Assembly: GCA_028753945.1 (NCBI GenBank)
Contig: JAPNXP010000014.1
Coordinates: forward strand, 5,022,001 to 5,086,000
Source of the DNA: Hexactinellida sp. DTS-2022
Lineage: Eukaryota > Porifera > Hexactinellida
Direction: 5' to 3'
Length of the DNA stretch: 64,000 nucleotides
Shown: piece after piece, positions 15,201-60,959 of the stretch
Layout of the letters: each line of letters begins with the position of its first letter
How positions within the stretch are numbered: the first letter of the stretch is position 1
Made by a program: the position numbers and the translations under genes
Notes under the pieces: model-generated
Database searches by the model: none
The model's input: only the letters and a program-made list of their open reading frames with translations
What the model was told of the DNA's origin: nothing

Positions 15201-18200
15201 CCAGTTGGCCCTAGCACCATGAATCCGTGACGTACTTCCTGTGTCTCAAACAGTTGTATTAACTTAAGTTTCCAAGAGGGATGTATTATGAGACCAGCCT
15301 TAGTAATATTGGTGTTAATAGCCTCATCTAGCTCTGGGTACCCCCCTTCTCTATCGAGAGACATCCCGGGAAACAAGTCATTCACAAGCGAGAGGAATAG
15401 CGGCTCGTCCTCCTCAACCAGTTTGGATAGATTCATGTCTCTCAGGCCTCGCATTACGGTGCTACTCTCAGAGTCCTCGGGGTGAGCCCGCTTTTCCGTG
15501 CCCAGCGTGCGGAGAACTGAGAGCATGTTCCGCAACCCGAAATCATAATGTACCTACATTTAGTTAGTTTAGCACGGTTGAACTAATAAAGTAGATTCTC
15601 GTTAATACGAACACCAATTTGTTTGTATTAACTGGAGTCACTTGCATTAATTCTATGCTCTAAGCCTAAGGGAATATACCTTGTACTCCTTAACCGATAT
15701 TTCGCCTTATCCATGTTCGTATTAACTAGAGCCTACTGTAAATAGCCCTAATGAACTTGTAAATATTCTTGTATACCTGTTTTGAAAGTTGTTCTTCGCA
15801 GAGTTTGTATAAAACGAAGAATTTTCGCGAAAGCGGTACATTCTCAAGGAACCCACAAGAGGCTAGTTTCACGCGAATTATAATTTGTCTGTCGGGCACC
15901 ATCATGGCTAGCGTTCTGAAGTTCAGCTTAAGATTCTCAGGCAACTCTTGTCTTCCTGCATATCCGGGATTCATAGTCAGGAATAGCCCGAACTCTGGGT
16001 CCAATTTAACCACATCTCCGTCTAAGAAAATGAAGCTACGCTTCCGCTCTTTCTTACAGAGCAGTACCACTGCTATCTGTTGAGCTGCCACTGAGAGCAC
16101 TGGCAGTTTTATGCGATTAAACTCATCGAAACAACCCCAGGAGCCTGATTGAGCCAGCCCTTTGTAAATACGCCCGAGACCTCTGAAATCCATCTGGTCA
16201 GAGCAGTTGAACACAACCACGTATTTACCGAGACAACGGCCCATGTCCTTCACAGTCTCTGTCTTGCCTATTAATTCATACATAATAATAATAAAACGTT
16301 ATAACCGAGTTCTACTGTAACATATACAGTGAACTCTCGTTATATCGAAGTGGTTGGGACCTGTAAATTCCTTCGTTATATCCGGATATTCGTTATAACC
16401 GGATAATAATTAAGGCATTTAGTCCTCTGGTGGAAAATCTCCATTTCGTTATAATCGGTTATTTCGTTATATCCGGCTTTGATATAACGGGAGTTCACTG
16501 TAATTTACAATAAAATTCTATAAATATTCGCGATTATACCTGTTCCGGCTGGTCCAGCGGGAGATCCGCCCATAGACATGCCGAGTGCCTGAGCTAGCGA
16601 AATGTAACACCTGTCAGTGAGAGGTGTTATAACCAGTCGATCTGTGCAACCGAGGAATTCGTTTTGATAAACGAAATTAACATCTGTGATTGAGATTTCA
16701 CATCTGTCCATCTCTTCGTTGTAATAAAACCTAGTTTGTTTCAACCATTCAAAATCCTTTGGTAGTCGAATATGCAATTTGACCAGATCGTTAAAAATAT
16801 CCCTTTGGTGCACATGGATTGTGATGAGCGTTTCAAAACGAACGCGCTCAATTTTTTTCAAATTTCGCGTAGTTTGGTCAATAAGCATGTTTAGCATTTC
16901 AAGAAAAGCTTGATTTGTTTCAGCCATAATATTCTTATTCACGCGACAATTGGTCAGAGCCATTTCTGCATCTCGAGTCCACACCATCTGGATGCCAATA
17001 ATGCCAACCTATAAGGAGTCAAATTTAAATAGTTATTCATCTCAATATGCTACATTGGCAAAGAAATAAGAGAATAATTGCTAATAGTGACTCGTCAAGT
17101 TTACAATATAATAGTACAGTATAAGAGGTGGCGTGGGTTAAATGTAATCTCAATAAATTAAATGTGATAAGTTAAGTCATTAATGGAGGCTTATACAGTA
17201 ATAATGTTAGTTTCTACAAAGTATTGATGTAAATAGAACTCGGATAATACGTAATTATTAGATAAGGTAAGTCGAACTAATCGTTGTGTAAGTTGAATAT
17301 AACCAAATTTAGCTTTGATCGTGACCCTACGAAGGTAAACGTCACGCTTTGATAGAAAAATAGTCATCTTATGTAGTAGAACTGTGTAATAAGCAAGTAT
17401 TTTCCAATATTTGTATTATAGTAAAGTATGTAATGAAATTGGATTGATCTTCATCTGAAGAATATTATAAAGGCCGGAGATTCAACTAGTATTTTAATTA
17501 ATTAATAAGTGAGATTTCAATAGATTAGATCTTTAGTATTGATGTATTGTATTTTATGAAACTAGTCATAATAAGAATCATTATACATGTAGTATATTAT
17601 ACTTTTAGCTACATATTTGGCTGTTAGTTCCATTTACCCATTCATTTAAGGCCACTGTTTGTTGGAATCTTGTTTCAGCTCAACCTCCCGCGTCAGATTT
17701 CACTCCCGCACGAATATGGTCATTACTGTCATTGCATTATTTCCATTATTACACCTACATTCAAGTAAGGCTTCGTTGCCAATTTTATTGGAGGACACTC
17801 TAAAATAGCCATAATTAGCTAGTAACAAAATCAGTACCTATAACAAGCATTATTACCCAACGATTGCATATTTTATCAATAAGCACTCGCAAATTAGAAT
17901 ATTTGCTCAGATAATTATTAACTATGTCGTCATCAAATAATGAGATAATGAAAATGAGATGCCGCCCGCCCGCATCCTATGATGGATTTCGTGTGGAGCT
18001 GAATCAACATTGTCATTAACAGAGACCTTATGTTGTCTACCTTGCATATACAGTTCAAACCGGTTTTTTCAAATCATTTCTCTTCAGATAAAATAGTAAG
18101 AAAAAACCGATAGTTAGAAAAAACCGATGAAAATACAGTATACAGTCGAAACCGGTTTATTCTAACTCGGGTTATTCTAACTTATCGGTTTATTCTAACT

Positions 18201-21200
18201 ACGTATTAGTAATGCAATCTTTTGTAAGAAATTCCAACTATACTGTATTTTTCATCGGTTTTTTCTAACTATCGGTTTTTTCTTACTATTTTTATCTGAA
18301 AAGAAATGGTTAGAAAAAACCGGTTTGAACTGTAGTTGGAATTTCTTCAAAAGATTGCATTACTAATAGTTAGAATAAACCGATAAGTTAGAATAACCCG
18401 AGTTAGAATAAACCGGTTTCGACTGTACAGTAGAACTCGGTTAGCTTAGTACATACTCATTTGTATTGTGCCGACTATACTATAATAGTGGTCCAGTATT
18501 CAAACAACTGCCTTTATTTATTAATGGGCCAGTACTGAAATGAGTGGATTTATTTTCTCCATATACGGTGTCCTGGCCACACCATTACAGATTAATGGCT
18601 GAAAATTGGATTGTAGGTGCGAGTAACCGTCTAATTTGCACCAGGGCTCACGATTGTTAATCAGACAATTTTTAAACCTATTAAACAATTATGGCCCAAA
18701 ACATAAAGTAACTAATAGTGACCTTGATTAAATCTACATGTATGGATTCAAATTTTTAGCAGTTCACGAATTTTCAACTTGGCCTTACTCTCTGCCACAA
18801 TTGGGGTGTTAATTCCCTTAATTTAATGCACTTGAAATTCATTAAAACTGTTGATTCTAATTCTATTGTTCGACTTGTTGATAAATATATTGATTCAACT
18901 TGTTAAAATTCTATTGTATATTGAGTAGTCTTCTGTAAGTTGTAACTATAGGATTTCAAGTAGTCTTCTGTAATTGTAGTATTTCTAATAATGGATTAAA
19001 AACTCCCAATTATTTGTCAAATGCTCTAAATGGCATGTAAGACCTTTCTAAATATGTCTTAACACCTTGAGATGAAGATGACATAGTCAAAAAATATTTT
19101 TTTACAATTTTGGTATTTTATAATACAGTCGAAATCGGGGTTTTTTGCCACGGGTTTTTTTGCCTTATCGGGTTATTTTGCCTCCTTGCTTCTCCTTGTT
19201 TCTTCATAACCTCATAGAACTGTATATTGTTAAATATGGGTTTTTTTGCGTATCGGGTTTTTTTGCCTCTTTTTCCATGCATTTAGGGGGGCAAAAAAAC
19301 CCAGTTTCGACTGTACCAAAGTATTTTATTGGTGTTTAGAGATCCCTAACTCATACTCAAAACTAAAATAACTTGGTTAGTACATACACTCGTATAATAC
19401 GTACTTATTTTTCATTCCCCAGGGGTACGTTTTAACCGAGTCCTTCAGTATTATAACGGTAATAACTTACTAATAAGAATATATATGTCATAAAATCAGA
19501 CAGTAAAAAGAGACTAAATAATCTTCAATCATAGACAATGGGTACATGGGTATTGATATATACTTGGAAATAAAACACTATTTGTAGTAAATACTAAAGT
19601 TATGATGCTTCAAAGAAAAGCTACGCTTTAAACAAAGAATAGCAGTCCTTGTAACTTCCTAACTTCTCATATCATATAGAGAAGGAACTAACAGCTAGCT
19701 ATGTGAATACAATAGTTGGTTGGTTGAGAGGACAGTATTTTATCGTGTGAGCATCATCTCCATTGGCATTGCACAGGGGACACGTGTAGCTACGTAGATA
19801 GGGACAAACCACACGACCCTCAATGTCCTTCAGGATATGGGACCGATACACGTGTTCTGGCTGCTTAGAACTCTGGCAAAACACGCAGAACCTGACCTTC
19901 TTATAGCGGTCTCGATTCATCGCTGCTCTCTGTCGCTGTACAGACAGACTGTAGTCTATACGAGTGGGAGCAGGCGCTGGTATAGTGTGTGGTGTCTCCA
20001 TTGTGTGACGTGGCGCTTGTACGGGAGGGGGGGTGTAGGGGGCAGTGAATGCAACATTGAATTCTCGAATGGGTGCGTGTGGGAAGGCAGGGGGAGGGAC
20101 ATGGTTCCATTGGGGCTCCATTGGGGTTGTTTGGTAGGGGGGTACACTGGAGAGTTTCGCGACATCGTCAATAGCTTTGTAGAGAGGACCAGGAGAAGAC
20201 GAAGGGTATAAATAGGAGTCCATTGAGTTGTAAGGTAGAAAAGTAATAAATGTACAATTAGCAACCTTTTATACTAGCTCAGAAGCCAAATAGCAAACGC
20301 GTATATATGGTCACGAATTATTGATGAATAAGTATGTTTGTCTCGATCGATCATGATTCCAATGAAGTAGCATTCATACCAAGAAATTAGTTGCATGCGT
20401 AGGGGAATGAAACTGAACTTTGGATAATCTAGTCAACTGATGGAGACTTACTAAATTTGTGGTATCTTGCCTAAATAATATTTCCACGTTGACAATAACA
20501 ATTATAAAAGGATATAAATAGGATTCCCGAGGAGCTTAAATACAGGAAGTGAAACCTTGAGGAATTTTACCATATAAGGAATCGAACAATTAATGTAATA
20601 AATACATTACTCACCTGTGCAGGAAAGGATTCTAGAAACTCCAGTAGAACTAGGCTTGGATTAGAAATAGTCACAAAAGCATTTCTAACAACAGTGGCTA
20701 CAGATCTTAGAGCCATATCAAGTAGTCTTCCAAGCCACAACTCTACATGCCCCTGTGTAATAACATTCTGATCTAAGGGAATAGTTTCAGGCTCCTTAGA
20801 GTTTATTTCTAAAATAGTGTCGTATTCTTTTGGGTGGAATGTGACAGTCTTTATGTTATCGAATATGTTGAGGAGGTGAGCTTGTATGGTGTGGGAGTCA
20901 CTGGCCTGGCCGAGGATCTCTAGGAGCACAGGATCCGACACGAAGAAGAATCGAGGGAAGATAAGTCGCTTCTTCTCGAGGTATCTATTTGGATAACCAA
21001 TTGATTATGCGGTGATTAGCTTCAACTTTTGAGTGTAAACAGTAATAAACAAGTATTTAGGGTACAAATAATTTCATTTAATGAATATACGTGTATTACG
21101 AATTTATTTAGTGGCTGTACAGTGGAACCTCGTTAATACGAACACTATTTCAGTCCCCTTCAAAGCCCTTTCAATACAAATGATATTGGCTAATACGAAT

Positions 21201-37685: not shown

Positions 37686-40600
37686 ATGAGCATAACTGGA
37701 GATATTGCCCCGATCGAGAGCCTTATTTCTCTAGGCATACAACCACATCCTAGTTTGGTGGCGGACAGGTTCAGTAGTGACGTAAACAAGATAATAAGGT
37801 CCACTGAGAAGTGCGTGAAAAGCATCAAATGCATGCACGTACGGGAATCAGGTAAGCGGTTTGTATAGAGCAGTGGTTTCCAACCTGGGGTCCACAAGAT
37901 GTATTACGGTCAATGGGAGGGGGTCCACAGGATGCCAAATATATATATAGGGGGTCCACGGTTGAAAGAAGTTGGGAATCGCTGGTATAGAGAGATGTAT
38001 ACTGTTTTTATTATATTATATCACAAAGGGGGGACAGGATCAATGAAGGCACTTGCACTGATAAACTCTGGACAAGAGGACGCTCTCTTCCTATTCTGTC
38101 CTTCCACATCCGAGAAGCAACTCGGCAGAGCGAATACGGGAGCAGATTTGCTAGTTTTGGAAGACATTATACCGATAACTCCTAACGTAGAAATACAGCA
38201 GAAACCAACGAGCAAAAAGCGAGCTTCGATAGCGGAGGAGAGCGAGGTAGATATCACGATCACAGGTGCGACTTAGTAGCAAACATTTATAATATAAAAG
38301 TTATTATGAGAAGAGAAGTGATTTGAGCTTAGATTATTCTGAAATTATACATGGTAAAATTGGCTTATACAATTGTCAAAATATTCGATGAGATTCTTAT
38401 CCATCGATCATCGGCGTTACTTTTGAATTAATAAATCAATTACTGTTAGGGCTTACATACGTATATCGGCCAACACCTTTTCAATAGTATAAAAACCTGG
38501 AATTTTTAAGTCCATGAAGGTTACATTAGAAAAGGTGTTTGCTGAAATATAACTAATTCCTTATTGATATTGATGTGTATTATTCTTTAGTCGGAGCCAC
38601 ACAGAGCTTGTCCCTCTTACTGCCCTGCTCAGTTCCGCTATTGGAGTTACTGCAGAAGGTAACACAGGCTATCCATAGCTCCCGGAGTAACACATTGGTA
38701 TTCGAGTGGCTAGACTACTACAGACAGCTGATAGCCGTGACTAACCCAGAAGAGGGAGCCAGGGTATGTTCCTATTGTTAGTTAGTGTTGTACTTTCTTA
38801 ATTTCAGATTCTAATAATATGCCTCTATTCTGTTTTATTGAATTTTTGTTAGTTTGTATAGATTCTGCCATTGCCAAGTATTCACAACAATTTTATAGCA
38901 AATTGTTAACTATTTTTAAACTGAACCACTTTGATGACACCCCCTAAGGTTCCAATTATCTGTTTAATTTCGCGAATAGTATTATATATTTACTTGTAAT
39001 AGAATTCGCTGTTTGCATCGAGCTCAATAGAGGACAGTTGTACAGTACCACTGATAGAACTCGAGAACTCCTCTTCCCCCCCTAAGCACCCCGCGATGAG
39101 ATCAGAGGGGACTCTACTCGACCCGTTCTCACCCATGAAGTGCGGCACACTAACCGCAGAGACCCTAACGCCAGCTGATATCCACCTGTTCGAGGATAAG
39201 GGTGCTTTCTCGAATATATATCGGACCTCTGTGATCAATAAAACCGATAGTATGAAGAAGATACTCAGTAAGAGTGAGACGAGTTTAAGCAAAATCAAAG
39301 ATAAAGAACACAAGAAACAAAAGAAAAAGGTACTTAACACTCTACAAAGACTGTACAGTCGAAACCGGGTTTTCTAACCAATTCTTTGCCATCGAATAAA
39401 GTAAGAAAATCCGATAGTTAGAATAAACCGATTGAAAATAAAACAAAATTGGAATTTCTTACACATTTAGAATTAATAGTTGGTTAGAAAACCGCTTTCG
39501 ACTGTACATGTATAATACTCTGGGTATTTTAACTATATATGTATAGTCTCACGAAGAACACCGCTTGACTTCTAGCTTCAGCAAGTTCTACACAGACCTG
39601 GAGCCTCCCTCTGACTGCAACGGAGACGGAGATGGGACAGGCGCTAATAAGCTCAGCGCTAATAAGCTCAGTGCTAAGTCTGACAACGATCTGAGAATGG
39701 AATTGTTTCTCTCTTCTGGCAGCCACTCACCGAGATCAGAGCGTAAACATGTAAGTTATCTCTTTATATCTCCCATTCTAATGTTACGTGACGCAAAAAT
39801 CCCGGAAAATTAGACACCCATATACAATATATGTAGAAGGTGTGAATTAACGAAACATAGTATTTCGAAAAGTAAATCAACAAAGTTACCCTTTGGAAGT
39901 GTTACGTTACGTTTGAACTATCCCTTTATGGTAATTAGTTATGAGCTTAATATACTCTGTTAGAAGATAAAAAGCACTTTCTACGTCCCTCCCGCTGACT
40001 ACGAAATGGAGGCGATTAAGAACCAGACCAGTGACGTCACAGGAGAGCAGACCGTAGATACGTTCGATATTGAGACTGGGAATCTCCCAACGGAGAACTA
40101 TGATATTATTCAGATCATGGAGAGACGAGCAGAGAGCGACCCTCATACCAGAATCAAATCAAGAAAAAAGGTAGTGTTTTGGACAAGGATTTATCCAGGA
40201 GCGCTGGAGAATTATTTTTGGAATCTTCTCCTATTCCGCAACATAAATTTGTGATTTAGGCGTATGTACATTGGATAAGACCAGGATTAGGAGCGCATTT
40301 ACAAATGGCTGTATAATACACTGGTTTCGGCTTACAAACTAGAGTTGAGTTGAGTATATTTACTGCGTTTAGTTTCAAGGAATCGGCACTGCGTTCCGCT
40401 CGATACACGACACCTGGGCTGCCCAACACCCGCTGCCGGAACCGCAGAAACAGCTGAACAAAGGTCCGCTGCAACGAGAGGAGGACAACGAGAGGAGGAG
40501 GATGTCTGCCAGCCTCAGGGAAAAAGTTGGTTGCAAATATTCGAAATTTTTATGCCATACAATTTCCAGGACAAATCCATTTTTTGTTTCCGATTTTTGA

Positions 40601-43600
40601 AATTTTAATACAGTGGAAGCCGCTTAATCGGGACAGGCTCTGGAATAGATATTCTGTCCCATTTTTCCCGATTAATCGATGTAAATTATACTATTAGACA
40701 CGAATTCGTTTCCGAAATTTCGTCCCGATTATTTTCCCGTTATCTCCCGATTAGTGGCTCCCACTGTAATCTAATTCCCGCTTTGGTTAGTTAATAAGTA
40801 CTTGAGACAGAGGGGTAGTAGGTTAATGGCACGGTAGATTAAGCATCTCTACGCAGGGGGTCAAACGGCTTAGTCGTAGTCAGAGTGTTACATTTCGCGA
40901 TACCTCTTTCAGCTGGGAGAAACTTACCAACAATACAAATGTATGGCTGGACTGGATTAATGCGAATATTCTGAATACGGATTTGTACTGTCAGTACAAG
41001 TTAAAGTTAAACCCACTTCCACACCAGGTAGTGTATTCGCGGATGCGGTCCAGACATGCAGAGTTCACGTATCAAGAGTCTCACTTCATTCTTGTGACTA
41101 CTTTCAATGTAAACGGCAAGAATTCTCCCGCTTCTCTGAGGAAATGGCTGACAGATGCTCTCAGCGGATCTAGGATGCCAGATCTATACGTCATCGGGTT
41201 CCAGGTAGAATGTGTAGCTTATAGCGACAGTAGAACCTCGTTAGTACGAATTCCGGATAAGGAGTGCATATTTTGATGGTACCTTGATGTATGTAGTAAC
41301 GAAGTTCTACTGTACTTATGAAATTTATTATTTCTAAGGGGCCGTTCGAATGCTTTAGGTAACGCTTCCAAAGATTGAGGAGGATTAATGAATGTGTGAA
41401 ATAAATAATAAGGGGCCCTTTAATCGTTATGTAACCATAATTTTATATTACAAAATAATAAAAAGCGTCATAGGAATTTGGGGGATATAATTTTCGGGGA
41501 TCATACGTAAAGTAACGTCTTAAGCTTATTTGCATTAACCGAGACCGCTGTTTGTTGTAGGAGCTGGATCTGAGCCCAGAGGCGCTGATGACGAGTGGCA
41601 ATAAGATGGAGGATGAGTGGAAGGACTCCATTGAGAAGTGTCTGCGGCAAATCGGCACTTACAGGTGTGTGCGGTCCATCCGTATGGTGGGTGTGTACCT
41701 ACTAGTGTACTGCATGGGGAAACTGTTCTCCAATATATCTGAAGTGGACTCGGATAGTGTAGCCACTGGAGTGCTCGGGATTATCGTAAGTTATGTGTAC
41801 CATGGATAGCAAACATATAGACTCCGCTTTATAGAGCCACCGGTTAATGGGGTCAAAATTCAGAGGATTTATAGGACGGAGTGACAATTTGGCTTAAAAT
41901 ATTTCGGTTACTAGATTTCTCCGCTTAATCGGGTCAAAGTAACCTGGTCCAGAGATAACTCTATTAAGCGGAGTCGACTGTATTTGAAATTAAAGATTAT
42001 AATACTTATGGACCATTGATTATTATTAATCTTTTGTTTAGGGCAACAAGGGAGGTGTGAGTATCCGATTTAGATTCCATCACACCGAAATATGTTTCGT
42101 TAATTCGCATCTCGCTGCACACGTATCAGAAGTTGAGAGAAGAAATCAAGATTTTAACGATATTCTAACTAAAACCCATTTCTCTAATCCTATGAAACCT
42201 AAAGGCATTCTTGACCACGATATCGTTGTTTGGCTGGGTGATTTAAATTACAGGTAATAATATCTTAATTTAATGTACAGTAAAACCTCCAAGAAATGAA
42301 CAACTCCAAAATATGAACACTTTTTCTCGGTCCCAAATTTCCTAATTGCTTTAGACACACGTTATGATAAATCATGAAAAGTGAACTTTTGGCTGGTCCC
42401 CAGAGTGTTCACTTTCTAAAGGTTTTATTGTATCCTATTATTTATATTGTTAAGTTAATTAGGCTAATAACAACACCAGAGGTTTCTATTGACTCGTTAA
42501 AGGATTTAATCGCGAAGGAACGATTTGAAAAGTTGTACGAGTATGATCAGTTGAGGATTGAGATTGAGAAAGAGAGAGTTTTTAATGTAAGTTTTATACA
42601 ATACTTAAGAATACCATATGCCATATACTTGAACCAAACTTTTTCAATATAAAAACCCGGCTTCGCAAAGGTGAAATTTTCATGGTATGAAATGACTTTG
42701 CCAGTGCTTGAAATTACTATAGAAAAGTTTGGCTGATATAATTCGTTATATACAGTCGACTCCGCTTAATAGAGTCACCGGTTAATAGATTTCTCAGATT
42801 AATCGGGCCAAAGCAACCTGGTCCCGAGGTGACTCTATTAAGCGGAGTCGACTGTATTATAAATATTGGCTTTATTTCAGTTTATTGTTAGGAGTTTTTC
42901 GAAGCGCCTCTAATGTTCAAACCTACTTACAAGTACAACCCCGGTTCGGACGATTGGGACTCGAGCGAGAAGAACCGACCCCCCGCCTGGTGCGACAGGA
43001 TCCTCTGGAGAGGGTCCCATATAGGCCTGTTGGACTATAGGAGCCATCCCCAGATAAAGATCAGCGATCACAAACCAGTCTCTGCTTATTTTGAGGTAGA
43101 ATAGTGAGCCACTTGTGTCTTAAGGGCTCATCATAGGGAATTATCTGGGATCGTATTTACAAATGGCTGCATAATACACTGGGCTCGTTCATGTAGGGAT
43201 ACAAATGCCTTAAATATTATACGTACTTTCATTACAAACTTGTAAACTGTGCTCTGTCATGAGCCACTTGTGGCACAAGTTCTAGTTGTCAAAATACTTT
43301 CGCCGGGTAGAGTATTTATTCATTGTTATAATCAAATTATATAGTAGGGCATTTAGAAGCCCTGACAGTACAAATTTTTGAAAGTTCATTACGTATAAGG
43401 AATTCTAAATTAACTTAAATTTATAAAATTATTACAATAACTGAATTGGAATTTAATTATAACATTATCATTTGGCTCTCTCTACGAAGTATTCTATTGT
43501 CTTCCTCAATCCCTCTTCGAACCTAACCCGAGGTCTCCATCTCAACAGCTGTTCCGCTCTGGTGATATCCGGTCTCCGCTTGACGGGGTCATCCTCTAGA

Positions 43601-49874: not shown

Positions 49875-50891
49875 TTAATTAGCTTGTTGTTCACTCGACT
49901 GGAAACTGATTAGAATCGCTTCTTCAATCTGCCGCATTTCTTCCTTATCGATTTCGTTAAATAGCTCTCCTCCATTGTCGCTAATAGATTTGAGTCCATA
50001 AGCGGCCGACAATTGATCTGAAATACAAAACGGCAGTTCTCCTTTAACAACGAATATAGAGTATCCCTCCTGCACCAGTTGAGTTAGGTATATAGATAGA
50101 TATGTGTCTGAGATAAGAGAGGGCCGCTTCAATTGGGAATTAAGGTTAACCCATTGCTCACAGAATCGGCGTATTGTAAACCAATGCGATTGGAAGTTGC
50201 ATACAAATGCGAGTTCCTTTTCTGATTCAGATAGAGCTGTGCCAGCGTCCTTACTCGAAATAGGCATTATGTTTAAATTAAACAAACTCAGCGCTTTCGT
50301 TATAACTTGTATGGAGAAACTTCCGGAGTCGTCCATGTTATTAGAAGCTCTCTACAAACCAATAAAGTAAATTCACTAATATTTTAATATGAACACTAAC
50401 TAATTCAGTCCCCTTATAAGCATTTTCAAATATAATTTCTACGAACTAAGTATAGTCGAAACCGGGGGTTTCTAACCATTTCTTTTCAGATAAGAATAGT
50501 AAGAAAAACCGATGAAAATACTAGTAAAGTTGGAATTTCTTGCAAAATATTGTATCACTAATGGTTAGTTAATTAGAATAAATCGATAAGTTAGAAAAAA
50601 CCGGTTTCGACTGTAGCTCAACATGTACAATCAGAACCAATAAATTTGCATAAAGTTAGTATGTATTAGAACCTGCATGGATCTCAAGTAGTCCACGCTA
50701 TCAGCTCCCCCCTGCAGGTACTGCTCTCTCTCCTGTGCGTCCAGCTGTGTGGCTATCTCCGCTAGCGAAACCGCGTGGAAATGCGGCTGCTGAATAAGCG
50801 CATTCAGACAGTGCTGTGCACACATGTTGTCATCCTGTTGTTTGTAGTGACAGATGCTGTCTACGAATTCTGAGGCGAGCGAGTGTGACAT
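49875..50891 (-). CDS. ATXN3-like: Ataxin-3-like Josephin deubiquitinase
   Basis: Edits ubiquitin chains in quality control with p97/VCP. Exons 50891-50673 and 50351-49875 give 231 residues. The Josephin domain has the catalytic Cys in NMCAQHCLNAL (residue 24), His in NFQSHWFTIRR and Asn in WVNLNS. Also present are NMDDSGSFSIQV, LISDTYLSIYLTQL and GYSIFVVKGELP, near-identical to the family. After the Josephin fold only one ubiquitin-interacting motif is seen (MRQIEEAILISFQSS). There is no polyglutamine tract and no second UIM, so the protein is shorter than human ataxin-3 (about 360). An ATG at 50951 would add 20 hydrophobic residues; the start at 50891 fits the family better. Confidence 0.93.
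50453..50615. repeat. Family F element in the ataxin-3 intron
   Basis: AGTCGAAACCGGGGGTTTCT to AAAAACCGGTTTCGACTG. Confidence 0.77.
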
Positions 50892-53909: not shown

Positions 53910-56900
53910 CTATGAAGAAATCTCTAACACCTCTTCATGATTAGAATACGCAGACGAGACAGAAACCTGGCTATTTCGGTAATTATTATTTAAACTCAAT
54001 CGATTCTGTAAGCTGCTCCATGAAGTTCCTGAATCGCGGTTTTTACAGAAAGTTGACATTTTAACCGGACTACTCGGTGGTGTAATTTCTTCTATTCCCG
54101 ATGCTCTGCTACTAGATTTCCCAACAGAGTTTTGAGACCTAGCTTGTAGCATAATAGCTTCATAAATTATCTGGTATTGTTCTACTGTTTGCACCATATA
54201 AGGACGTTGTGAGCGTAGATAATGTACGGTTTGAGATATGTTGATGTGTCTAGCTTCTTTCAACTCTTCTAACAGATTCATTACAGCTATCAGCATTCCT
54301 GTGTTCCCACTGCCGTTGCTACAGTGCACTGTAATCGGTCCTGAACCGAGAACTAAGATGGATTGGTACATATTCGAAATCTCTTGACACAGCAAAAGCA
54401 GCGCTTTCGCCGCAACAGACCTATTCAATTCGGATAATGGCGAGAATAGGAAATGGCTAATGCTACGTACTTCCCCCGTGTTGAGATTCATTACAGAAAA
54501 TTGCTGGTAGAGGTAGTGGTCCTTGTTACAACGTTCGGAAGTTTTTTCGACCTGAAATTTATCGTATATTTGTAATTTCTCAGGATAATAACACTCGTCG
54601 AATTCAGAGCTTTGAGAGGCTATCATGACTATGATTGGGGATTTGTATTGCCATACCATACGCCAGAAATCTGGTATCGTGATAGCAAGCGGGGTTTGAG
54701 TAGCGATGAACTGTTGTTTGTGGGAAGTACCGTCTATAAAGCTAGCATTTATATAATCGGTGTCAGGCTGTTCGTTCTGAGTCTGTAGTACGACACGTGA
54801 ACAGTCGAATGGTGCTATTTGAGTGTATCTGTTCTTCTTCTTATTTTCTACGTTATTAGCATCAGAAAAATCTTCTGAGTCATAGTTAATTTCTAGAAAA
54901 TTGAACTCAAGTTCGAAACCAGATTGTTGCGTGCTGGGAGAAACTATTGCGAGATTTGAGAATACATTATCCATATAGTTCAATGGGATATCAGTCTTTT
55001 GAGAGGTGTAACATTCCGCGAGGACCTTGTATATGAACAGGTACTGGTCTTCCCCTTGTACCATGAACATACGTTGCGTACGTAGATAGGCTACATGCCC
55101 GAATACATCAATATCTTTCTCGCTAAGCATTCGCTTTAGCATTGAGTCTAGTACTATAAACGTACCGGTTCTACCCACCCCAGCACTGCAGTGCACTAGT
55201 ATGGGATGGTTAGTTATGATAAGCTTAGAATGCATTGTGTGGTGGACACGCTTTAGGAAGTTAAGCATTGGGAGCGGGTGTGGGGGTACCCCGTGGTCTG
55301 GCCATGATACAAACTGGAAATGGTATATAACGCGTGATTCCTTATTCGCGGTTATTTTCCCTAGCAGAAGTTTTCGCACCGTATAGTCACAGTATACGAG
55401 TGTGGATATGAGAGTCACTTTGAAATGTCCGAAAATATTCGTGTCTTTAGTAGGCCAGTACTGAATGCACTTGTCAACTCCCCTCTCCTTAAGTTTAGTG
55501 ATCATAACGAGACTCTGTACACGCTGGTCGTATACCATCTCCCAGAAGTCTTCTATTGTGGATTCAGTGGGGCCTTGTGTGGCGATGTAGGCGTTCTTCT
55601 TATCAGCGCTGTCAATAAAACTCGCGTTTATATAATCCGAATCATTCTTATTCTCTGTTGGTAGAATAACGCGATTGTGGTCGTAAGGAAGTATGTTTAA
55701 GTACCGGTTCTTTTTCGCGTTTATTTCACTTGTAGCGATTAAAGTAGTCGATGTCTCGATTGGACTGAGATAGCCGTATTCCTCACTGAGTCGCATGTCG
55801 TCATCAGCTGTGAGGGCTTCTAGAATCTTCGGTAGCATGAATGCGGGCACTGGGGCCCTGGCATCCAACTGAGGGTCGTTAACAACACTACGGTAGTATG
55901 ATATGGGATCTGTTCCTTTGGGTAACTTCTTGAAGTTAACATTAGCTGACCAAGGGACAGAATTGAAGTCTGTATCACACGGCTGGTAAGGTATTGATCT
56001 CTTGGATACAAGATTTCTCTTGGAACGAAGTCTAGCGCATAAAATGCTGATTAATATAATCAGTATACATATGAGGAGAAATAGAAATATAGTCGATATA
56101 GCGATTATAGCTGAAATTACTCCAATTGAGTTGTTTGAGTCTAACTGTTTCGTGATTATAATAGGCTCGGATAATGTGCTACTAGTCGCGAGGTATCGAT
56201 TCGGGTAGATTGAGTTGACGCATGCTTTTACATAGAAAGCATAGCCAAACCCTTCCTTGAGTGGAATATTACGGTAGCCCCCGTAGAGCTCATTATCGCC
56301 TAGCTTAAATTCTCCATAATCTACAGGTGTGAAGTTAGCTGCTATATAATTCTGCGGTTTCGCGGTGTCACTCGTCAGCGCATAGGCTAACAGGCTGTAA
56401 ATAGATTGGTTTGTTGTGAGGTGATCTACTGACTCAGTGAGTGGATCGAATACAAGGACAATCAATAGATAGAACGAGATATTTCCAACTGTTTTCGAGA
56501 ATTTAGGTAAGGAGAATATTCTCTCATTTGCATTCACTATTTCTGGCTGTGTAATACCAGCAGCTAGATTAGGCGCTAGATAGTCAGTTCGTTCTACCAC
56601 TCGCACCCAGCTTGTATCGAACGAGTTTCGAGCTGACAGCCGTATGGAATATAAATTGTTCGGAATTAAGTCAACACAAGAAGCGGAGTAAGAGAATATC
56701 CCTGGTTCATGCAATACTGTTATTTTCCTATCAGAATCCTGTGTATTGCTGTCTGATACAAGACTACAAGTCAGATTGTAGTCTAGGATTAATCCATTCG
56801 GATCAAATGGCGAATACCAGTTAACCACTAACTGGCGACCTCTGCTATTAACCTCTGAGATGTAAGGTTCTGAGGGAGTGTCCTCTAAAGTCATAAATGC

Positions 56901-59900
56901 AAACTCTTTGCTGTATCGACCTGTGGCAACTTGGTTGGTGGCAGCTACTAGAATTGTGTATCGCGTGTACGGATGCAGGTTACGTAGGGTAATCGAGTTG
57001 AGTGTAGAAGCGTGCACTGCTAAGTCGTTAATATTAACCTGAATAACACGGATTCTGTATTGGGATATAACTCCGTTCTTCTCTGCAGGAGGCTCCCATC
57101 CTATTTTCAGGATATTCGCCTCAGCTTTTATACGGAAAACAAACTCTATTACACCCGGGGCATCCGGGAGAGTACGATTAGAAGCAGCGTCCGAATAAGG
57201 CCCGTTAGCAACCGTAACTCCAGCCACTTGGAATGTGTAGCTCGTATACTTTTCGAGACCAGTCACGATATGATGGAAAGAGTGTGTATAGTTTGAGTAT
57301 ATCCATTCAGGGTGCACTGCTGAATTGTACCGAATTAGGTAGCCGGTTAGAAACCCGTTTAAATAACGCATGGGAATCGGTTTCCACGACAAATGGATAC
57401 TTGTAGAAGTCTGTGGGACAGCTAATAGGCCCAGTGGAGGTTTGCTAGGAGCTGATTGCCCGCTTTCTATTAGAAATATAGCAGAGTCACCAAACCCTAC
57501 ACTTGTCTTAGCGGAAATAGTGAATTTATAATAAGTATAGAACTTGGTAGCGTTGTATGTGAATGTAGTAGTCCCGTGTATACTCAAGGGTGGGAAAGTT
57601 ATAGTCTTAAGTATGCTCTTTCCTAGCTCGTTAACCTCCACTTTATATTCCAATATATCTCCTGTAGTAGAGTTCTGTGGTGTTATGTCTATGCGAATAA
57701 TCAAGCCAGATTTGTCAGTAGATCCGTTCACAATTGGAACCATAGGGATAGTTTGTTGAGTTGTTAGACTTATTTCGTTTGAAAAGGAAGCTGATCCAAG
57801 AGAATTGAAAAGTTGTATTCTGAATGTATACTCCGTGTTTGGAAGTAGGTCATTAATGTAGTAACGGTTTGTTGGGTATGTTATTTCAATAAGATTATTC
57901 CATATATTATTTTGAAAAGTCTGTATACGATAGCCAGCAGTTGGTGCGTATATCAGGGCGATAGGAATTCGTTTCCATTCGAGGTATATGGAATTCGGCG
58001 TGAAAGAAATAGCAGTGATGTTATCAACCACTGCTAATGGGAGAGCAGAGTAAGTCAGTCTGTGAATAGGATTAGCACTGTAAGGACCGTAGCCCACACC
58101 CGCATTAACTCTAATGCTAACTGCATAGTTTGTATATGGAGTTAAACTAGTGAGAATAACCTCTTGGCTAGAATTGATAATTAAAGTAGAGTTTTCAACC
58201 TCTCCTCTCACGCCTATATAAGTGTATATTATCTGGTAGTGATGGAACACACCGTTTAACTGGAGTGCGTTTAATGGCGACCATGATAGCTTAATGGCGG
58301 TTGCGTTAACTACTTGCACATCAAGATATGGACTCACCCCTGGTACCCCTTCTGGCGTTTGGAATTCGTAAGTGGCCTGAGGCCCAGGCCCCTTCTTAGT
58401 GGAGGCAAGGATTCTCCAGGAATATCGTGAGTAAGGTGTGAGAGATTCCGCGAGGTAGTGAGACTCATTATAAACCGGGAAAGAAGTTATATGCGAATTG
58501 CTCCTTTGTAAGTTCTCAATTGTGAGCGTATACGCTGTGATAACACCATTCGGCTTATCAGGAGGATCCCAATACAAATTGCATGCGATAGGAGAAGTAC
58601 AGTTAACGTACAGATTTATAGGCGGAGATGTGGGATAGAATTCTAGAGTTCTAACTGTTAAAGTTGAGGATGGATCACTGTAGAATCCGCCGTTAAAACT
58701 TAATGCGGTTATTGTGTACTGGGAATATGGGTTAAGATTGTATTGAGTGTTTGAAATCTTGAATTGGAGTGTAGTATTGAAAAATGTTGCATTTGCGAGA
58801 TTGTTTGATTTAACGATTAGTTTTACACCTCGATAGGGTCCATTGAGAGTTAGTACATTTGTGACAATTTGAATGTCGATACTGAAAGGTGTGATATTCC
58901 GCGTGTGAACAGCTGGAGGTGAAGTGGGGTACCAAATTCTAGTTCGAAATTCGGAGAATTCTGCGAAATCACTATTTCCATTAGTATTTGTTGCTCGTAT
59001 CCAAACTTTATAAGACGTATAAGCAGTTAGTTGCTCTAGAAAATATTCCCGAATTTCATTCTTTGTTGAAATAGAAACAAGCGGAATGGAAAAGTTATTG
59101 AAACTGAGTGAGACAATATCAAGCACTTGTAAATCAAATTTGTACAACCGATCATTAGATACAACAGGCTCCCAATGTAATTTCGCGGAATTATGTGTTA
59201 TTTCTATTATTTCAAGACCAGTAGGTGACAGAGGGGCACCGTGTACAACAACGAATGTGGCTTTTGAAGATACATTTCCCACAGAATTAATAGCCAGACA
59301 TGTATAAGATCCCTGATCTGTTAGCTCTGCTATCTCTATCACAAACTGGTTAGAGTTTGCTGCGAGAATAATATCGTCTTTGTACCATGAAATAACTGGA
59401 TCTGGGCGACCTATAAATAAATATTTTTTATATTTAAGAACTCGAATATATATCAAATAAAGAATAAAAATCTCACCTGTAGCATTGCATTCAATTTGGA
59501 GTTTCATTCCAACATTTATCTCAACCTGTTCTTTAAATACACTTGTTATCCGTGGTATAGAATACACTGTAACACTGGCCCACTCAGAAAAGGTGATACC
59601 CTGTGAATTCCTACCAACACACCTGTAGACACCTTCTAACTCTGTTCCCACAATATCCACCACCCATTCAGACCCGTCACTAACTACAGCATTATTCTTA
59701 CCAACCCATTTCACACTCGGATCTGGGTATCCCTCGAAAACGCACTTTGCCTCAAATCTCTCTCCCTCGATAGGAAATAACGCGACTGTAATGCTTATAA
59801 GTTCAGGCGCTTGTCTTACAATTAGCGTTGCATTTTCACTATCAAACCCATTCACATAGTAAGCTGTACTGAAAGCCTCACAAGAATACACTCCGTTGTC

Positions 59901-60959
59901 CTCTGCATACACTTCATACAGTGTAAGTGTGGAGGTTATATTCAACCCGTCGTTAGTTGTAGTGACCTCACGTAGCTCTGGGAAAGTTCTAAGCTCAGTG
60001 CCTTTATGAGTCCACCGTATGTTGCCCATAACGCCTACAAAGAGTCAAATTAATATTGAAATATTGGTATTTAAATACAATGGTGTTCGTGTGTGATAGC
60101 AAGTAATATTTTGCACGAAATTTGCTTGCTAATATGCGAAATTAGAGCAGTGGTTCCCAACCTGGGGTCCACGGTTGAAAATGGTTGGGAATCGCTGTAT
60201 TAGAGGAACAAAATTAACATTAAATGCTCGCTTAGACACTGAAAATAACTTGCTATTAAATAGAGCAATATTGCTACTGTATATATCTCACCAAAAGCCC
60301 TGCATGTGAAGTTAATATTGGTGCCAGAGTTTGTTTCTGAGTCACTAGGTCCGCTCGCTATCGATGGGTAAGTAGCCTCAGACCTTTTGTACACAAATAA
60401 TTTAGCAAAAGCTGTTATAACTCCGCCATCGTTATCCATAGCTCGGCAGCTAATAGCAAGCCAATTGTCTTTTGGTTTAACAGCAGTGTAGTACAGAGTC
60501 CCACCTATTAAACAATATGAAAGTACAGTAGAACCTCGTTAGTACAACACGGTTAATAAGCAACTCCAGTTAATACGAACACTATTTCAGTTCCCTTCAA
60601 AGCCTTTTCAATACCAATGATATTGGTTAAAATACGAATTCTGGATAAGGCGAACACATTTTGAAGGTCCCTTGGTGTTCGTATTAACGAGGTTCTAATG
60701 TAGTATGTATTATTCGAATTAATTTAGCTGACATATACTGATAACATATTAACATACCATTCGGACGCCATCTATTGACAGTGGGAATACTCCCATTCTT
60801 CAGCCAGAGGTAGGTAATAGGCAATGAGCCTTGTGCGAGACAAGTAAACTTAGTATCGTTACTGTTGTAGACATGGACATCTCTTGGTTTGGTGATGAAA
60901 CGAATCGAAGAGGTTTGAGTGAAGTTTAGCAAATAAATGAGAATAACAAGAAACCACAT
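53910..60959 (-). CDS. PTPRF/LAR-like: LAR-type receptor protein tyrosine phosphatase
   Basis: Cell-adhesion receptor phosphatase. Exons 60959-60758, 60504-60292, 60034-59477 and 59410-53910 give 2,157 residues. The signal peptide is FLVILIYLLNFTQTS. Four Ig domains follow (e.g. FTCLAQGSLPITYLW, NGVYSCEAF, GVYRCVGRN, GSYTCLAIN), then about nine fibronectin III repeats (Pro-start modules such as GAPLSPTGLEII and APSKPPLGLLAV). The membrane segment is ISAIIAISTIFLFLLICILI, with a basic stop-transfer ARLRSKR. Phosphatase D1 is intact: KKNRYLNILPYDHNRVIL, FVSWPDHGVPPHP and the P-loop VHCSAGVGRTGTF. D2 keeps the Cys but reads HCSNGSGNTG, with Asn for the catalytic Arg, and has no WPD loop, so it should be inactive. 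LAR usually has three Ig and eight or nine FN3 domains. The last exon is 5.5 kb, in sharp contrast to the other genes. Confidence 0.92.
59411..59476 (-). other. 66-bp stop-free intron of the receptor phosphatase
   Basis: Between a GTGAGA donor (59476) and TTTATAG acceptor (59411). The length is a multiple of three and it has no stop in the gene's frame. Splicing it joins CNATG to RPDPVISW and restores a normal Ig domain; retaining it would insert 22 mostly hydrophobic residues. Confidence 0.75.
60075..60275. repeat. Family H element split by a hAT-like element
   Basis: GTGTGATAGCAAGTAATATT to AAATAGAGCAATATTGCTAC is one family H element, in an intron of the receptor phosphatase. Confidence 0.67.
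60148..60197. mobile_element. Minimal hAT-type element (50 bp) in a family H element
   Basis: CAGTGGTTCCCAACCTGGGG to ATGGTTGGGAATCGCTG, flanked by AATTAGAG and TATTAGAG (7 of 8 identical). It shares both ends and the GGGTCCACGGTTGAAA core with the 114-bp copy at 37871. Confidence 0.78.
60525..60702. repeat. Family A element
   Basis: CAGTAGAACCTCGTTAGTAC to TATTAACGAGGTTCTAATG, in the first intron of the receptor phosphatase. Confidence 0.77.

Follow-up and report, generated by a model that had tools for sequence, protein, structure and literature searches.

A family F mini-transposon inserted at a TA dinucleotide of a second F copy in a hexactinellid sponge genome

Results

A complete F element lies within another F copy

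This analysis concerns a nested pair of copies of family F, a miniature inverted-repeat transposable element (MITE), in a 64,000-nucleotide stretch of the genome of Hexactinellida sp. DTS-2022 (contig JAPNXP010000014.1, here C6:5022001-5086000). This whole stretch is termed the window, and features are given in its coordinates. The host assembly that was searched comprises 112.4 Mb in 18 contigs. The pair is found between two minus-strand stretches coding for dynein heavy chain, at 16505-17008 (AAA_6) and 20567-21004 (DHC_N2), and from this position is probably intronic. Table 1 lists the features of the site.

A preliminary description of this DNA had placed a complete, reversed 190-bp F element within a second F copy, and both the sequence and its alignment agree with this and with the coordinates that it gave. 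When the outer flanks are joined through one TA, as it had also proposed, an uninterrupted element of 183 bp is restored that in a global alignment is collinear end to end with the reverse-complemented insert, with 180 of 183 aligned positions identical and 7 gap bases. The sequence ACAGTA-TA-GTTGG, split in the outer copy, runs unbroken in the insert (ACAGTATAGTTGG), and the unsplit target sequence AAATACAGTATAGTTGGAATT has 82 exact occurrences genome-wide, counting that in the window insert. The terminal inverted repeats of the insert have arms at 18141-18166 and 18309-18334 that span 26 bases including the TA and are 88% complementary. One F copy is inserted at TA 93 of another F copy, and the TA is doubled.

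The two copies are mutually inverted and similar, as might also be expected had the structure arisen by inverted duplication, through replication slippage or gene conversion, with no insertion. However, the ends of the insert are complete and a TA flanks it on each side, rather than the common flanks of an inverted tandem duplication. Since excising exactly the element and one TA gives an uninterrupted copy with the family sequence, we conclude that this is an insertion; TA 93 of other F copies is, moreover, filled by different elements (see below). A duplication origin is scarcely credible.

The preliminary description considered the two copies very similar. This requires qualification, since their departures from the F consensus are unequal: the insert has no substitutions and a single 4-bp insertion, whereas 3 substitutions and 3 one-base deletions separate the outer copy from the consensus. 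At 18426-18450 the right-hand TA of the outer copy leads directly into CAGTAGAACTCGG, which is similar to the CAGTAGAACC ends found at three other loci (L103, L104 and L106), perhaps because the outer F integrated at another element's border.

Table 1. Features of the nested F site and of the nearby sister element, in window coordinates.
Feature	Position	Strand	Basis or remark
Left TA, target-site duplication of outer F element	18049-18050	.	Sequence
Outer F element, left part (T-end, CAGTTCAAACCGG...)	18051-18140	+	18051-18142 corresponds to insert bases 1-94 at 94.7%
TA, left copy of the inserted element's target duplication	18141-18142	.	Alignment
Inserted family F element, complete, 190 bp	18143-18332	-	Alignment, consensus comparison
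Footprint-like TACGTA within the insert, at the position of TA 128, which is one TA in the consensus	18200-18205	-	Consensus comparison
TA, right copy of the inserted element's target duplication	18333-18334	.	Alignment
Outer F element, right part (C-end, ...GGTTTCGACTG), three tandem GTTAGAATAAACCG-type repeats	18335-18425	+	Alignment; repeats read off the sequence
Right TA, target-site duplication of outer F element	18426-18427	.	Sequence
Sister MITE (CAGTCGAAATCGGGG...GACTG, TA flanks), 700 bp from the nested F	19126-19313	+	Collinear with F; ends like those of L029

F is a family of near-identical copies flanked by TA

A genome-wide check for further copies, suggested by the preliminary description, was made with the 26-base end pattern of F and gave 338 matches (160 and 178 by strand), against none for the reversed control. 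Copies were measured from 45 sources (40 loci, L010, L012, L013, L014 and the window), from which a strict end filter retained 34; a further 8 were added through their coordinates to give a set of 42 for comparison with the consensus. The copies were for the most part those that matched the window insert best, which makes this a non-random sample, and L012 and L013 were taken because of their nested appearance. The first F copy of L010 failed the end filter, the outer join of L012 was not used in the consensus comparison, and L094, L095 and L097, which belong to another subfamily, were excluded from F counts. Because the second copy of L010 and that of L088 have common flanks, the 34 copies represent 33 independent sites. 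The 22 bases on either side of these two copies (L010 1417-1602 and L088, about 186 kb apart on C3) are identical, and judging from these flanks the surrounding region was probably duplicated after F had inserted.

The F consensus is 186 bp long, which leaves no room for a transposase gene. All 34 full copies measured have TA on both flanks, and with both strands pooled the TA tends to be preceded by A or G and followed by T or C. Together with the nested site, which is direct evidence, these flanks establish from sequence comparison the claims of the preliminary description that F is mobile, integrates at TA and duplicates it. Mean pairwise divergence is 3.1% (34 copies), and six of the 42 copies, including the window insert, are free of substitutions relative to the consensus. 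The recent activity that had been suggested is therefore a reasonable reading, while activity at the present day goes beyond the data. F is built largely from the word CGGTTTWTTCTAAC, with three tandem copies at one end and one plus two reversed copies at the other. Being short, non-coding and present in many near-identical copies, it has the characteristics of a MITE, and its TA target-site duplication and short terminal inverted repeats are those of the pogo superfamily.

Some copies depart from this arrangement. L098 and L109 have a 17-bp deletion in common, and L096 and L107 one of 15 bp, in each case one repeat unit, which suggests small F subfamilies that would differ in repeat number. 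At L013 (211-478) one end of a related MITE comes after an F copy, and no counterpart for it is visible on the opposite side of F, which may mean that an insertion lost one of its sides. Two elements elsewhere in the window (39356-39504 and 50452-50613) are related to F; their scores of 145 and 192, each taken in whichever orientation scored higher, were equalled by none of 300 shuffles.

F copies are targets for several TA-inserting families

We searched the genome for F within F using two exact 15-base ends in one direction with start-to-start distances of 40-100 bases, a pattern that misses events at the edge of an element or with changed ends. The 3 hits correspond to two events, the one in the window and one at C1:2824137-2824515, where a 186-bp F lies at TA 45 of an F copy with TA on both sides. 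Uniform random insertion would be expected to give between about 0.1 such events, for 338 copies, and 0.6, for the 828 first-look candidates, without adjustment for the AT-richness of F, and two events are too few for a claim of self-targeting preference.

Other elements also occupy TA sites of F. TA 93 is filled in one copy (L102) by a 434-bp TA-flanked CAGT...ACTG element with CAGTACATA ends and in another (L107) by a 146-bp TA-flanked CAGT...ACTG sister MITE, and in the L011 copy TA 62 holds a 315-bp element whose ends are CAGTACACCC. Several families that insert at TA have thus used F copies as targets. For TA 93 there are 82 exact empty sites, 3 occupied sites (among 7 pattern hits) and 3 scars; the remaining 4 pattern hits lie off this F site, and one of them, L106, adjoins an F relative. 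Since occupied sites were counted at TA 93 alone, we do not claim a hot spot there.

Short insertions at TA sites resemble excision scars

The 42 copies, which were not selected for scars, contain six insertions of at least 2 bases. Four of the six consist of C or CG plus a second TA at a TA: TACG at TA 62 (L072), TACG at TA 128 (window insert), TAC at TA 48 (L076) and CGTT at TA 128 (L065, reading TACGTT), the second TA of the last, now TT, having presumably mutated. Of the other two, one is a TT within a T run (L092) and one a repeat duplication of 23 bp (L098). A genome-wide search for 1-8 bases between duplicated TAs at four TA sites of F gave six scars, namely CG (L011), C (L108) and C (L109) at TA 93, CG at TA 128 (window insert), CG at TA 62 (L072) and T at TA 45. 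The intervening bases are C or CG in five of these and T in one; the window insert and L072 are counted in both sets.

These TA-C(G)-TA scars look like excision footprints that keep one base of each element end. CAGT...ACTG elements start with C and end with G, and most simply these scars would arise if excision left a single base of either end behind, both being retained by end-joining (TACGTA) or trimmed to one (TACTA). Cleavage would then fall one base in from the 5' terminus on each side. The element excised from such a site would have been some CAGT element, F or another. For Tc1/mariner transposases the cut lies two to three bases in from the 5' ends (PMC2170065), and footprints of the pogo-type element Passer are 0-4 bp (PMC9976928). 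In the portions of the literature available to our search, we did not find a one-base stagger described for pogo elements, nor did the search find TACGTA as a transposon excision footprint.

The scars could also be ordinary small indels. One TATTA exists among them, the numbers are small, and some scars may be common by descent. Set against this are the proportion of the C(G)-at-TA type among insertions in the unselected copies, and the occurrence of TACGTA at three separate TAs (62, in L072; 93, in L011; and 128, in the window insert). We therefore consider small indels an unlikely explanation and continue with excision footprints as the preferred one.

F is collinear with sister elements of pogo type

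The assignment of F to Tc1-mariner/pogo in the preliminary description fits, and can be narrowed towards pogo through collinearity with pogo-type elements. Genome-wide, pogo-type DDE_1 gave 114 match rows, which merge within 5 kb into 92 places, and Tc1-type DDE_3 gave 56. Thirty-two of the 92 DDE_1 places were read, and this scope holds for all statements below that an autonomous partner was not found; for DDE_3, five distinct places were read (L005-L008, L022, L023) out of the 56 rows.

The sister MITE near the nested pair (Table 1) aligns with F over its whole length with a score of 92 (maximum 29 in 200 dinucleotide shuffles), and it scores 52 after removal of the outer 24 bases at both ends (maximum 27 in 300 shuffles). 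Its ends resemble those of L029, a locus around C5:717867-719339 that holds a TA-flanked 1,942-bp element whose two ends are identical over 22 bases, CAGTCGAAATCGGGTTTTTTTG. L029 contains an intact open frame of 552 codons with matches to DDE_1 (4e-34) and HTH_Tnp_Tc5 (5e-7) and a weak match to the solved DNA-binding chain of CENP-B (E 0.003). Its catalytic spacing is DD30D, which has been reported in several pogo groups (PMC7325037). Aligned separately to the L029 ends, the F ends score 28 (maximum 6) and 49 (maximum 26) with 200 shuffles each; the repeat layout is the same, and the ends are related and non-identical. The three best genome matches of L029 are L030 (96%), L031 (51%) and L032 (42%), with L056 more distant (31%). 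CAGTCGAAATCGG is present at both ends of L029 and L056 and at one end of L030, L031 and L032, with similar subterminal repeats, and one end of the pogo-type L031 aligns with an F end over 53 columns at 77% (E 6e-5). On these comparisons F is best placed as a MITE from a sister of the L029 pogo clade.

Tc1-like elements also have a TA target and CAGT-type ends, and with 56 DDE_3 matches in the genome F might instead be mobilised by a Tc1/mariner transposase. An F-type end pair was, however, present in none of the five distinct DDE_3 places read, a small sample of the 56 rows, and it is the pogo-type elements that carry CAGTCGAAATCGG. Because F is collinear with the sister MITE and with both L029 ends, pogo is the better supported of the two, and we regard a Tc1/mariner source as very unlikely.

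An autonomous element with the same ends as F, which the preliminary description had proposed to look for, was not among the DDE_1 places read; what was found instead was sister elements whose ends are close relatives of those of F. In a set of 100 of the 338 F ends, covering C1 to C4:2.0 Mb and with each cluster represented by one end, no DDE_1 match lay closer than 24 kb. Individual candidates were also rejected. L009 (C1:4867156-4868833; L009 257-1934) is 1.68 kb long with F ends and TA flanks, but it has no stop-to-stop frame longer than 94 codons (a domain search was not run), and its interior is mostly unlike F. At L056 an F-like fragment adjoins the element and lies outside it, and L099, picked for a C-terminal fragment 78% identical, has a CAGTCGAAATCGGG end and no F end.

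Neighbouring features of the window

A further TA-flanked family, with CAGTCGACTCCGCTTAATAG ends (window 13540, 15056 and 42751), has only its first bases as in F; its copy at 42753-42855 has no clear relation to F, with 15 and 1 of 300 shuffles scoring as high in the two orientations. Near the MITEs, a minus-strand open frame of 189 codons (19699-20268) encodes a Nanos RNA-binding zinc finger (5.9e-24); as this frame lies between the dynein heavy-chain stretches, a nanos-like gene appears to be nested in a dynein intron. A minus-strand open frame of 2,044 codons (53910-60044) was judged by eye to encode a putative receptor tyrosine phosphatase with immunoglobulin and fibronectin-like repeats.

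Discussion

We consider it highly probable that F is a 186-bp non-autonomous pogo-type MITE, moved in trans by a pogo-type transposase; here one copy was pasted into TA 93 of another F. A transposase supplied in trans would bind the ends of F, probably at the subterminal CGGTTTWTTCTAAC repeats, excise the element and join its 3' ends to a TA, which is duplicated. Excision would leave TA-C(G)-TA scars, as the short insertions suggest. We infer both which transposase acts and the position of its cut, one base in from the 5' ends, and the placement of F in pogo has good but indirect support.

Several points weigh against this account. None of the 32 of 92 DDE_1 places read had CAGTYSAAACCGG ends around the gene, so that sister families are the basis for linking F to pogo. 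The shuffles used as controls lose the repeat word, and part of the collinearity scores therefore reflects common repeat structure. The TA-T-TA scar at TA 45 is not predicted by a one-base model, and the identical TACTA at TA 93 of L108 and L109 is possibly one event by descent.

Stowaway elements are Tc1/mariner MITEs with TA duplication, small size and excision footprints, and F is like them in the first two and, by its probable footprints, in the third. It is unlike Tc1/mariner MITEs in its pogo-type ends and inferred transposase, and in a proposed cut one base inside the 5' end in contrast to two to three (PMC2170065). With Passer-type pogo elements F has in common the TA duplication and short inverted ends, and its sister L029 the DDE_1 domain, the Tc5/CENP-B-like helix-turn-helix and a DDxD triad. 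It differs in being non-coding with no autonomous partner among the places read, and L029 has DD30D as opposed to DD35D in Passer. BogoMITE of the ciliate Blepharisma, compared by its description, is likewise a pogo-derived MITE with many near-identical copies and nesting, but has a TAA/TTA duplication and C-rich ends; its group is described as especially prone to MITE formation (PMC9942856).

Nested MITEs at TA are well known, and the case in the window is ordinary behaviour for a mini-transposon. The excision scars are the point of possible specialist interest, as a modest clue to cleavage position: many near-identical copies report insertions and excisions of CAGT...ACTG elements, so that the position at which the host's pogo transposases cut may be read from the genome. 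It is an evenly balanced proposition that this pogo clade cuts one base inside its 5' ends (TACGTA/TACTA, against two to three in Tc1/mariner) and that sister families have come to differ in their recognition repeats (CGGGTTTTTTTGCC, CGGATTATTTTGTC, CGGTTTATTCTAAC) while the layout of these, three in tandem and one plus two inverted, has stayed largely fixed. Because the sister elements keep one layout but differ in repeat word, they would be suited to testing the co-evolution of transposases and their binding sites.

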